Of a DNA stretch of 64,000 nt, positions 20,839 through 48,250 are shown piece by piece. The notes under the pieces are model-generated. The model worked only from the letters and a program-made list of their open reading frames with translations, ran no database searches and was not told the origin of the DNA. The stretch is from Sporosarcina ureae. Lineage in GTDB: Bacteria; Bacillota; Bacilli; Bacillales_A; Planococcaceae. The position numbers were made by a program, and so were the translations under genes. Within the stretch, counting starts at the first letter, position 1; each line of letters begins with the position of its first letter. Location: the NCBI RefSeq assembly GCF_002109325.1, contig NZ_CP015348.1:1021001-1085000 (forward strand), in the 5' to 3' direction.

Positions 20839-20883
20839 AGTATAGCATCTTGAAAATCAAAACACAATTAGAAAGCGTTTTCA
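20839..20883 (-). promoter_or_regulatory. cggR operon promoter with abutting cre-like site
   Basis: On the minus strand -35 TTGTGT (20862-20867) and -10 TATACT (20839-20844) are spaced 17 bp. Directly upstream of the -35 is TGAAAACGCTTTCT (20870-20883). It matches the CcpA site pattern TGNAANCGNTNNCA except at the last base and touches the end of the glutaredoxin-like gene. Downstream, GGTGGGACAGTAATAATATC followed by AAGGGATC vaguely resembles the GGGAC half-sites of the known CggR operator; this is weaker. Confidence 0.55.
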
Positions 20884-21114
20884 CTCGTCAATTAATTCCA
20901 AAACGTCGATATAGCCTATATTTCCGTAGGTTCGCACACGTCCTTCGTGTTCAATGACTGGGATCATCAGCATGTATTTTTCATGGATTTCGTCATCTTC
21001 TTCTATATTAATGGTCTCCCACTCGAGCGGATGATCTTCCGCCACTAATTTAAGCATGCGCTCCGCTTCCTCGCACAGCTCGCAATTGGGTCTTGTGTAG
21101 AATGTAATGTGCAT
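20881..21114 (-). CDS. Glutaredoxin-like thiol protein
   Basis: I use the ATG at 21114 (MHITFYTRPNCELC). GAGGT lies 10 nt before it, and the GTG four codons earlier has no binding site. The 77-aa thioredoxin-fold protein has a CxxC active site (Cys11-Cys14) and MIPVIEHEGRVR, the cis-proline region of the family. It is probably a cytoplasmic thiol-disulfide protein; partner and substrate are unknown. Its stop overlaps the cre-like site of cggR. Confidence 0.8.
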   Translation of the reverse strand: MHITFYTRPNCELCEEAERMLKLVAEDHPLEWETINIEEDDEIHEKYMLMIPVIEHEGRVRTYGNIGYIDVLELIDE

Positions 21115-21207
21115 GTCAGGGTTCACCTCGTTTTTTATTATGATGGCATGGATTGGGGCGGAATTCTAGTGAATTGCTTTTTTTAAGGGGGTGATGGGTT
21201 TGCTTGT

Positions 21208-21238
21208 GGGATGTGGGCTGTGGGGTGTGGGGTGTGGG
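21208..21238 (+). other. G-quadruplex-capable G-tract
   Basis: There are five runs of three to four G separated by 3-4 nt loops (pattern GGG-4-GGG-4-GGGG-3-GGGG-3-GGG) on the plus strand. The tract directly precedes the first core of the 21-bp array and lies about 95 bp upstream of the glutaredoxin-like gene. Confidence 0.5.
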
Positions 21239-22110
21239 CTATGAGCGGTTGCGCGGCTGGATAGAGCGGATAGCGTGTGGCTATGATCGGATACGTGATG
21301 TGATAGAGCGGATAACTTCGTGGATAGAGCGTTCGTGGGGTGGCTTAGAGCGGTCAACGCGATTCATTGAGCCGCGAGCAGCCAGAGCAACCAGTTACAG
21401 CGTAGCGGCCAGGTCAAGTGCGGAAAGATAGATGGCGCGGCTCATAGAATTCGTGGAGATCAGAATGTCATGCCGCGGGCTTAGAGCGGTTGCGTGGCCC
21501 GATAGAGCGGATAGCGCGCGGCTATGATCGGATACGCGGTGCGATAGAGCGAATAACTTTGTGGATAGAGCGGTCGCGGGAAGGCATAGAGCGGTCAACG
21601 CGATTCATTGAGCCGCGAGCAGCCAGCGTAGCGAGTTAGAGCGCAGCGATCAGGTCAAGTGCGGAAAGAGTGATGGCGCAGCACATAGTATTCGTGGAGA
21701 TCCGAATGTCGTGCCGCGGGCTTAGAGCAGTTGCGTGGCCCGATAGAGCGGATGGCGTGTGGCTATGATCGGATACGCGGTGCGATAGAGCGAATAACTT
21801 TGTCGATAGAGCGGTCGCGGGAAGGCATAGAGCGGTCAACGCGATTCATTGAGCCGCGAGCAGCCAGCGTAGCGAGTTAGAGCGTAGCGACCAGGTCAAG
21901 TGCGGAAAGATAGATGGCGCGGCACATAGAATTCGTGGAGAATGGAATGTCGTGCCGCGGGCTTAGAGCGGTTACGCGGCTCAATAGAGCGGATAGCGAG
22001 TGGCTATGATCGGATACGTGGCGCGATAGAGCGAATAACTTCGTCGATAGAGCGTTCGCGGGGATGCATAGAGCGGTCAACGGGATTCATTGAGCCGCGA
22101 GCCGCGGGCT
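21239..22110 (+). repeat. Array 1 of 21-bp phased GAGCGG cores in 241-bp units
   Basis: Cores of the type TAGAGCGG begin at exact 21-bp steps. In the second block GAGCGG-like cores start at 21484, 21505, 21526, 21547, 21568, 21589 and 21610. Four such seven-core blocks begin at 21243, 21484, 21725 and 21966, exactly 241 bp apart. Each ends in ATTCATTGAGCCGCGAG. The linker between blocks carries a separate conserved part (GTCAAGTGCGGAAAG, ATGGCGCGGCACATAGAATTC) and an inverted pair GCGGCAC/GTGCCGC. Both strands are open in several frames because 21 is a multiple of three, but I see no ribosome binding sites. I treat it as non-coding. Confidence 0.85.
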
Positions 22111-22136
22111 TAAAGCAAAAACTCCTCCACAATCAA

Positions 22137-22177
22137 AAAAGTGACGATAACTCGTCAAACGAGTTATCGTCACTTTT
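22137..22177 (-). terminator. Terminator of the lemA-TPM operon
   Basis: The perfect stem AAAAGTGACGATAACTCGT / ACGAGTTATCGTCACTTTT with a 3-nt loop is followed by T residues on the minus strand. It lies 6 bp past the stop codon of the TPM gene and separates it from array 1. Confidence 0.85.
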
Positions 22178-22183
22178 AAAGGC

Positions 22184-22981
22184 TTACCAGCTTCTGCCGG
22201 CGCCGCCTCCGCCACTGGAACCACCGCCGCCGAAGCCACCAAAGCCTCCACCGCCGCTGCTTCCACCTCCGAAGCCGCCACCGGAACCCGGGAAGAATAT
22301 TGGGCCGCCGCTAGATCGACCGCGTGGACCGCCGCCTCCTCTGCCACCTCTTCCTCCGCCTCCGAAGAAGAGTCGGAAGAGAATGTAGAGGACGATGACA
22401 ATGATGAAGAAGTTCGGCATTCCTACATCTCCGTCGTCACTTCCACCTTCAAGATACGTGACGGGTAAGTCGTCGCCATTCAAACCATATTCTGCTGCGA
22501 TTTCATTGTAGAATGCTTTATACGCTTCCATAATCGCGAGGTCTGGTTGTTCATTTCGTAAATATGGCATGGCCAGTTCATCAATGAAACGTCCTACTTT
22601 ACCGTCAGGCAGTGCTCCTTCTAGACCGTAGCCAGTGAGCAAATAAAATTCACGGTCTATTCCTTGCGCTTCGTCTTTCTCAGTAGAAACGACTAGCAAC
22701 GCACCATTTTCTAGCTTACTATCACCTAATTTCAATTCACGAAATGTCCGTAATGCATAATCCTCTACAGGCTCGCCTTCAAGTGAATAAACTGTACGTA
22801 CCGCAAGTTCAGCTTTTGTCGCTGCTTGTAATCTTATACCGTATTGCTCTATTTCTGATTCTTGTTCAGGTGATAAAATATTTGCATCATCTACCACCAC
22901 ATCCGTAATCGCATGGGCTGTCGTAGTACTAGTAAGGGCAACTAGTATGGCTACGAGGAACATGCAGAAACGGTTGATCAC
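22184..22981 (-). CDS. TPM-domain membrane protein with Gly-rich tail
   Basis: This 265-aa protein belongs to the YgcG/TPM_phosphatase family. It has a signal peptide (about residues 1-24, ending TAHA), the TPM domain (ITDVVVDDANILSPEQ... to ~170) and one transmembrane helix (NFFIIVIVLYILFRLFFGG). The tail is almost only Gly and Ser, ending GGGGAGRSW. The TPM domain would be outside the cell. Biochemical function is poorly defined in the family. Its ATG overlaps the lemA stop by 4 bp, a pairing seen in many bacteria. Confidence 0.85.
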   Translation of the reverse strand: MINRFCMFLVAILVALTSTTTAHAITDVVVDDANILSPEQESEIEQYGIRLQAATKAELAVRTVYSLEGEPVEDYALRTFRELKLGDSKLENGALLVVSTEKDEAQGIDREFYLLTGYGLEGALPDGKVGRFIDELAMPYLRNEQPDLAIMEAYKAFYNEIAAEYGLNGDDLPVTYLEGGSDDGDVGMPNFFIIVIVLYILFRLFFGGGGRGGRGGGGPRGRSSGGPIFFPGSGGGFGGGSSGGGGFGGFGGGGSSGGGGAGRSW

Positions 22982-47569: not shown

Positions 47570-48250
47570 GCGGGCGATAGGCTATGAGCGGATACGGCGT
47601 GGCTTAGAGCACTCAACTCATTTCTATGAGCGGATAAAACCCGGCTTAGAGCACTCAACCCATTTCTATGAGCGGATAAAACACAGCATAGAGCACTCAA
47701 CCCATTTCTAAGAGCGGGTAAAACGCCGCTTAGAGCACTCACCCCATGTCTATGAGCGGATAAAACACAGCATAGAGCGCTTAACGAGATTCATTGAGCG
47801 ACAGCAAGCGTCTCCCACTCGAGGATCAAAGATAGATGGCGCGGCGCATAGTTTGCGTGAATACTCAGTGTCACACCGCGAGCTTAGAGCGGTCACGTGC
47901 TTTAATAGAGCGGATCACGTGTCACTATGAGCGAATACAAGACGCAATAGAGCAGATCACTTCATGGATAGAGCGCTCGCGTGGATGCATAGAGCGATTA
48001 TCGAGATTCATTGAGCGACAGCAAGCGTCTCCCACTCGAGGATCAAAGATAGATGGCGTGGCGCATAGTTTGCGTCAATACTCAGTGTCACACCGCGAGC
48101 TTAGAGCGGTCGCATGGCTTAATAGAGCGGATCACGTGTCGCTATGAGCGAATACAAGACGCAATAGAGCAGATCACTTCATGGATAGAGCGCTCGCGCG
48201 GATGCATAGAGCGCATAAACGGATTCATTGAGCCCCCTTCTCTTTCTCGC
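47570..48250 (+). repeat. Array 2 of 21-bp phased cores with 217-bp units
   Basis: Cores start at exact 21-bp steps from 47586 to 47796 (eleven in a row). In the first part they alternate as a 42-bp dimer (TATGAGCGGATAAAAC... then TAGAGCACTCAACCCATTTC). Two seven-core blocks follow, 47887-48013 and 48104-48230, starting 217 bp apart and each ending ATTCATTGAGC. The 91-bp linkers share AGATAGATGGCG and a CATAG element with array 1. The array lies between the convergent ends of the amidase and DUF4097 genes. Confidence 0.85.

Follow-up and report, generated by a model that had tools for sequence, protein, structure and literature searches.

Intergenic arrays of seven short direct repeats at a 21-bp step in Sporosarcina ureae and its relatives: probable cis-acting sites for a putative DNA-binding protein

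What keeps a series of short, evenly spaced motifs in a gap between two genes of Sporosarcina ureae? The window (the whole stretch of 64,000 nucleotides that was analyzed) holds near 21 kb an array of four blocks whose layout, together with that of the surrounding features, is given in Table 1. A sequence-only reading had described in block 2 seven GAGCGG-like cores at exact 21-bp positions, and in the array a repetition every 241 bp with a common block end, all of which was borne out. The seven positions are 21484, 21505, 21526, 21547, 21568, 21589, and 21610; GAGC[GA] stands at five of them, with GATCG at 21526 and GAGCC at 21610. The first cores of the four blocks (21243, 21484, 21725, and 21966) are spaced by exactly 241 bp, all four blocks share the end ATTCATTGAGC, and TRF reported a single 241-bp array at 21236-22102 with 3.6 copies. 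Within an array, all cores repeat directly on the same strand, and inverted repetition is confined to the linkers: the module GATGGCGCGGC...GCCGCGGGC forms an inverted repeat in the 94-bp linkers between the blocks, and the right arm of the CGCGGCAC/GTGCCGCG repeat, at 21952-21959, enters block 4 by 2 bp. A second array of the same kind, with a linker related to that of the first, spans 47578-48242. On the + strand of the window, GAGC[GA] pairs at 21 bp numbered 33, against a mean of 0.27 at other lags (10 to 59, excluding 21 and 42) and a chance level of 0.15 on average and 2 at most in 100 first-order Markov simulations. Open reading frames (ORFs) of 63 to 148 amino acids overlap the window arrays on both strands (21166-21357, 21204-21431, 21395-21598, 21636-21839, 21877-22080, and 21942-22388), and the three translations scanned matched no NCBIfam model.

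Table 1. Positions in the window of the two arrays and of the features around the first
Feature	Positions	Strand	Basis
Block 1, 7 units (7 x 21 bp)	21235-21381	+	
Linker 1, 94 bp, holds module GATGGCGCGGC...GCCGCGGGC	21382-21475	+	
Block 2, 7 units (block named in the sequence-only reading)	21476-21622	+	
Linker 2, 94 bp	21623-21716	+	
Block 3, 7 units	21717-21863	+	
Linker 3, 94 bp, holds left arm (21918-21925) of inverted repeat CGCGGCAC/GTGCCGCG	21864-21957	+	
Block 4, 7 units	21958-22104	+	
Hairpin with A/T-rich flanks, terminator-like, between array and TPM gene	22140-22175		inverted-repeat self-match
Flanking gene, glutaredoxin-like (DUF836)	20881-21126	-	Pfam
Flanking gene, TPM domain protein	22184-22981	-	Pfam
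Second locus, 11 units in one register	47578-47808	+	
Second locus, 7-unit block	47879-48025	+	
Second locus, next 7-unit block, at a 217-bp step	48096-48242	+	

The sequence-only reading had preferred selection on spacing to simple duplication. Within the 21-kb locus itself duplication is real: the four neighboring blocks are near-duplicates, with a mean difference of 0.138 outside the core and 0.014 inside it. The argument for selection is drawn from other loci and other species, as set out below. Throughout, G000 denotes the source genome (3.38 Mb), other G numbers denote other genomes, and L numbers denote loci.

The search for phased cores that the earlier reading had proposed gave 236 matches to AGAGCGG-N14-AGAGCG (at most one mismatch) in the whole G000 genome, versus 0 for the reversed control; exact three-core matches numbered 110. 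In the G000 stretches, which were mostly chosen for arrays, GAGCG pairs lay 21 bp apart in 185 cases, 20 bp in 5, and 22 bp in 3, and the steps within the elements were 21 (363), 20 (17), or 22 bp (3), the finder permitting only these three. A tolerant finder gave exactly seven units in 36 of 51 chains and a stricter one in 32 of 50, counted in stretches mostly selected for arrays and with related copies included; among the other 15 chains of the tolerant finder, 8 had 6, 8, or 9 units, and expansions reached 39, the large one at L035 having 36. The table of units gave a core of approximately TA[TG][GA]AGC[GA] with 21-bp steps and 13-bp spacers. Printed in register, the elements follow a single design of about seven units, the first core usually being CTATGAGCGG, the middle ones often ATAGAGC, and the last ATTGAGC, AATGAGC, or TATGATC, with mostly unrelated spacers. 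Between 23 loci (one per site), identity was 0.89 in cores, a value partly conditional on chain detection, and 0.36 in spacers, for which composition alone expects 0.25; the surplus comes from weaker preferences next to the core. Two AT patches recur per 21 bp, at positions 6 to 8 and 15 to 17, the first being partly imposed by the finder. The base after AGCG at these 23 loci is mostly G in units 1 to 4 (35 to 87%), C in units 5 and 6 (52 and 65%), and T in unit 7 (35%). Chi sites were rejected on this variation between units, the Chi site of AddAB being AGCGG.

Some of the G000 elements are related beyond the cores. L018 (2771-3130), L020 (2904-3257), and L041 (2878-3117) have 240 to 360 bp in common at 87 to 92.5% identity, and since the shared stretch comprises the array together with its left flank, copying has, for at least some elements, involved longer units. 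L036 matches L101 of Sporosarcina sp. P2 at 89 to 93% identity in three pieces over 3.7 kb, and the intervening array is not alignable. A different short interspersed repeat was also seen in G000, at L016 (994-1115), L018 (2764-2819), L020 (3195-3256), L021 (1342-1406), L031 (3932-3991), and L044 (9512-9981); it is common to Sporosarcina sp. P32b (L055) and partly to P2 (L101) at 78 to 94% identity.

At orthologous loci, the cores and their spacing outlast the DNA between them. The 21-kb window locus carries 2 to 8 blocks in each of eight species, whose consensus blocks differ pairwise by a mean of about 0.04 per core position and of 0.36 outside positions 6 to 12; a core stands at unit seven in 33 of 34 blocks, a seventh-unit core being required for the comparison. 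The blocks within one species are alike, so concerted evolution occurs at this locus. The corresponding stretches of 13 further relatives gave a five-position array in one and none by the finder in the others.

Two single elements of G000, A and B, located at 214.7 and 222.2 kb and each flanked by hairpins, were compared in 10 genomes. Exactly seven units were found for element A in seven genomes (G000, G103, G002, G094, G134, G196, and G122), with 11 units in G110, four detected in G182 (the others altered by substitutions), and none in G039. Element B had seven units in five genomes (G000, G002, G134, G196, and G122), eight in G094, 11 in G110, four detected in G103, none in G039, and none in G182, where the contig ends near by. 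Both elements are dispensable, as G039 has neither. Of the 72 steps found in the twelve seven-unit cases, 58 were 21 bp and 14 were 20 bp. An alignment of element A that was not anchored on cores, covering six relatives (G182 and the close relative G103 left out), gave identities of 0.35 to 0.46 for spacers and 0.73 to 0.82 for cores, with 0.39 to 0.55 for the left and 0.48 to 0.69 for the right non-coding flank and 0.92 to 0.97 for the left terminator. On this evidence, the spacers change much as unconstrained DNA does, whereas the cores and the step are kept; the idea that spacers change faster than neutral was dropped, their identity being close to that of the unconstrained DNA on the left. 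The array had 0 to 2 gapped G000 columns, and because the left flank had no such columns either and insertions were uncounted, the kept array length rests on the chain steps. In G182, element A (L285) shows another pattern relative to G000, with 0.76 identity in the spacers and 0.89 in the right gap, next to 0.86 to 0.87 in neighboring coding DNA and 0.36 in the left gap, which suggests that the array and its right flank may have been exchanged between species.

Since cores and spacing persist at orthologous loci while the intervening DNA changes, simple slippage or duplication is insufficient, and the case of strain-unique, identical units, which would have spoken against selected spacing, did not materialize. 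A broader form of this explanation is a selfish or mutationally maintained repeat, spread by copying, homogenized by recombination, and without host function. It would suit the long common stretches of L018, L020, and L041, the likeness of the 2 to 8 blocks within one locus in eight species, and large expansions such as that of L035. Homogenization, however, would preserve the spacers too, whereas the orthologous single elements keep cores and step only, and slippage does not predict a preferred count of seven; we regard such a repeat as an unlikely explanation.

Relatives carry arrays with other cores and steps. The motif CGATCA at a 20-bp step (at most one mismatch) matched in 12 of 61 genomes of the genus, among them G226 with 82 matches and G200 with 49; its opposite strand, TATGATCG, is near the G000 core. 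Stretches taken at arbitrary positions held 20-bp arrays in G226, G199, and G193, where the step is 20 bp or mixed; the arrays of G224, G213, and G202 had a 21-bp step and different cores. The absence of drift stated in the sequence-only reading is accordingly a property of block 2 that does not extend to the 20-bp or mixed arrays or to the 14 shorter steps of elements A and B. Both weaken the strict helical phasing of that reading, and exact 10.5-bp phasing is not universal. A periodicity survey covered 72 stretches (1.44 Mb) at arbitrary positions in 18 genomes (16 from the genus, the other two from a second genus in the family), G110, G134, and G174 having been included because they are array-rich and G127 because it matched the control. 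Outside ORFs of at least 150 amino acids, the period was 21 in 20 of 33 periodic intervals (at least 3 of these 20 being coding or A/T-rich on inspection and not real arrays), 20 in 5, and another value in 8; inside ORFs it was a multiple of three in 39 of 41. In G193, L249 (11400-11830) and L354 show, inside a single intergenic region, a 20-bp TATCAGCACTT array with a 21-bp TTATGAGCG array immediately behind it, and in G224, L241 has three distinct 21-bp arrays (AACTTCG/AACGTT, AACAACGTT, and GTAGTCGAGTTT) inside 20 kb.

Within the family, the exact three-core pattern matched in 83 of 200 genomes, belonging to 14 of 19 genera, and 117 genomes were without a match. Some genomes matched the reversed control as often or more, and the many control matches in genomes such as G049, G127, and G170 indicate that other 21-bp arrays exist there. 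Class-wide, 15 of 299 genomes matched, those outside the family including a 7-bp simple repeat and possibly coding repeats. Inspection of 11 loci in named genomes revealed arrays in Sporosarcina, Oceanobacillus, Ornithinibacillus, Virgibacillus, and Allobacillus.

The arrays lie in the gaps of the chromosome. All 36 G000 sites examined, drawn among the matches listed and with the last part of the genome under-sampled, are between genes and none is inside a flanking gene, according to crude ORF calls; ORFs of 103 to 293 amino acids that overlap the array itself at 7 of the 36 sites were taken as spurious. By gene context, 11 sites are convergent, 11 have both genes against the core strand, 7 have both along it, and 7 are divergent, rough counts from an ORF finder that does not call rRNA genes, four of the 36 sites following rRNA operons. 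The arrays perhaps mark the ends of transcription units, but this is not a rule, as at least two sites (L019 and L033) lie between divergent genes. The G000 contig begins with a sigma-70 gene and its origin is not at base 1; when the origin was inferred from the direction in which the eight rRNA operons point, 24 of 37 sites were head-on to replication (P = 0.10), and without the five rRNA sites 13 of 32 were co-directional (P = 0.38), so the strand mapping that had been proposed earlier established no bias. At L040, some 940 bp separate a large expanded array from a TOTE-type primase-helicase gene (203-2080; Pfam AEP-TOTE).

The ends of rRNA operons form a distinct setting. G000 has eight 5S genes, and all five operons that end at 5S are followed by an array about 143 to 148 bp away on the opposite strand, four of these five cases having related flanks, which limits their independence; the three operons that continue into tRNA genes had no array in the stretches covered. 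Among readable rRNA ends without tRNA genes, an array followed in 5 of 5 in G000, 4 of 4 in G110, 3 of 3 in G193, 2 of 3 in G134, 2 of 3 in G199 (the third having three cores only), and 2 of 4 in G226 (one array sitting at 962 bp), and in none of the four each in G202, G224, and G021. This amounts to 18 of 34 ends and 6 of the 9 genomes examined, obtained with two slightly different periodicity settings and with the masked loci L327, L331, and L368 left out. One rRNA-end stretch of G202 that was flagged as periodic contained no array on inspection. In G199 an array also follows one operon with a single tRNA. The rRNA-end arrays of G199, G226, and G193 have cores of their own and 20-bp or alternating steps.

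Which protein might read such sites was considered for known families. An operator array for a regulator of the LytTR fold or of the Lrp-like type, its chain being cooperatively bound or wrapped, would equate each 9-bp direct repeat plus 12-bp spacer with a LytTR-type half-site. The sites of LytTR regulatory systems are described as 9-bp direct repeats with a spacing mostly of 12 bp and in a minority of 11 or 13 bp (PMC6193735), i.e., steps of 21, 20, or 22 bp, of which the arrays use 21 and 20. LytTR domains were present in 20 of 20 genomes tested, two of them in G000, and RemA, a ring with a LytTR-related fold, has been proposed to wrap DNA (PMC8481266). The LytTR consensus looked close by eye, but failed the permutation test: with a matrix built from published half-sites, 14 of 60 column permutations reached the observed score on the G000 cores, and for 17 other array sets the lowest count was 18 of 300. 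LytTR counts do not rise with array content either, being 2 each in G000, G039, G103, G110, and G122 and 3 to 5 in G021, G066, G076, G128, and G140, all of the latter without a match to the G000 core pattern. RemA (PF04025) was rejected as the binder, its gene being absent from all 15 genomes searched, with a positive B. subtilis control. The operators themselves are repeat pairs upstream of promoters (PMC6193735), and the arrays are chains of seven. We consider this operator reading rather improbable, and among the candidates tested, RemA and LytTR, no binding protein was identified.

The position after rRNA operons bears on another reading, in which the arrays are strong gyrase (topoisomerase) wrapping sites comparable to BIME-2 elements of E. 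coli, their phased sequence favoring the wrap and the enzyme removing positive supercoils after busy operons. Gyrase sites of E. coli are described as having a motif of about 130 bp with a 10.75-bp GC periodicity from -63 to +66, and as enriched downstream of rRNA operons and in BIME-2 (PMC6379681, in extract); the arrays, at about 147 bp, are phased and follow rRNA operons in the 6 genomes named above. A degenerate motif of this kind would not, however, predict the kept one-strand GAGCG core, and the 20-bp periods of relatives and the 117 family genomes without a match to the G000 pattern (where other cores are possible) speak against it. Predicted static curvature, computed with a wedge model, was slightly above that of column-permuted arrays (mean P of 0.35 for 46 G000 arrays and 0.34 for 22 others, with P ≤ 0.05 in 5 of the 22); being weak and uneven, it was also rejected as the main conserved property. 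Gyrase wrapping thus seems quite improbable to us.

That the arrays are translated or structured RNA, a reading to which the seven codons in 21 bp, the several overlapping ORFs of 63 to 148 amino acids, and 2 of 10 RNA folds with z below -2 (about -2.2 and -2.3) might point, is hardly credible, since stop-free frames in 42 elements showed no consistent excess over shuffled spacers (15 versus 10.5 for the best frame, so that any single frame is open in at most 15 of 42, and 0 versus 9.0 for another), all steps are 21 bp in 29 of the 42 only, the 20-bp arrays of relatives break any codon register, the other 8 folds were ordinary (z between -2 and +1.35), every Rfam match fell under the gathering score, and the scanned translations lacked an NCBIfam match. 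A coding repeat, which the sequence-only reading had named as the outcome that would overturn it, is hence unsupported, and with no consistently open frame, mostly ordinary folds, and 20-bp versions, DNA rather than RNA or protein is likely the active form.

The reading that we favor, and hold to be probable, is that each block acts in cis as a set of seven asymmetric sites for a putative DNA-binding protein, of which the core, the step, and often the number are kept. The element consists of sites with a core of approximately TA[TG][GA]AGC[GA] on one strand, 21 (sometimes 20) bp apart and about 147 bp in all. A putative sequence-specific protein that bound these sites from nearly the same side of the helix, in groups of about seven, would explain core, strand, step, and number together; once bound, it might bend or wrap the approximately 147 bp or lie along the DNA as a short filament. 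With less certainty, the complex may occupy the spaces that separate transcription units, which in several genomes include those directly behind rRNA operons, and its position would fit an anchor or a boundary that counters supercoiling, read-through, or polymerase traffic. The partner protein of relatives may have come to prefer another core and another step (20 or 21 bp), with the arrays following.

Elements without a described counterpart of this design had been claimed on first sight, and nothing in the open-licence literature, searched through its listings and with subscription papers outside the scope, contradicted this: no description of such arrays was found. Plasmid iterons and ParR-type centromeres are tandem direct repeats of about 20 to 22 bp that are cooperatively bound; the arrays, in contrast, occur at tens of chromosomal sites and have unrelated spacers. 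Like BIME/REP sequences of E. coli, some of which bind gyrase (PMC6379681, in extract), the arrays are intergenic, but REP units are palindromic, whereas the array cores are one-strand direct repeats at a fixed step. The nearest described repeats, a looser analogue, are the STAR elements of Staphylococcus, which resemble the arrays in being direct repeats scattered over intergenic regions, with a core that is conserved and spacers that differ by locus; they are of unknown function and have one locus upstream of gapR (PMC3532100, in extract). They differ in their core, which is 14 bp long and GC-rich [T(G/A/T)TGTTG(G/T)GGCCC(C/A)], in their spacers of 40 to 44 bp against 13 bp at a 21-bp step, and in their number, being mostly single motifs with up to 7 per locus; the same extract mentions no helical phase and reports no locus common to different species (PMC3532100). 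It is conceivable, though we advance it only tentatively, that the arrays represent an undescribed class of chromosomal element: landing pads, preferably of seven sites in two-turn phase, for a putative DNA-binding protein that diverges fast, arising anew with different cores and steps of 20 or 21 bp across lineages of the genus and perhaps other Bacillales, and serving as boundary or topology elements at rRNA ends and in other gaps.

Selection on spacing itself is seldom seen in dispersed bacterial repeats. In this case, a pattern of seven sites two turns apart has survived in two single elements although the intervening DNA has been replaced, and core and step differ by lineage. The short ORFs that the arrays produce may be kept in annotation as hypothetical proteins. 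If the arrays are read by one protein, genome sequences would suffice to infer its DNA geometry, and it would become testable what marks rRNA operon ends and intergenic gaps on these Gram-positive chromosomes.
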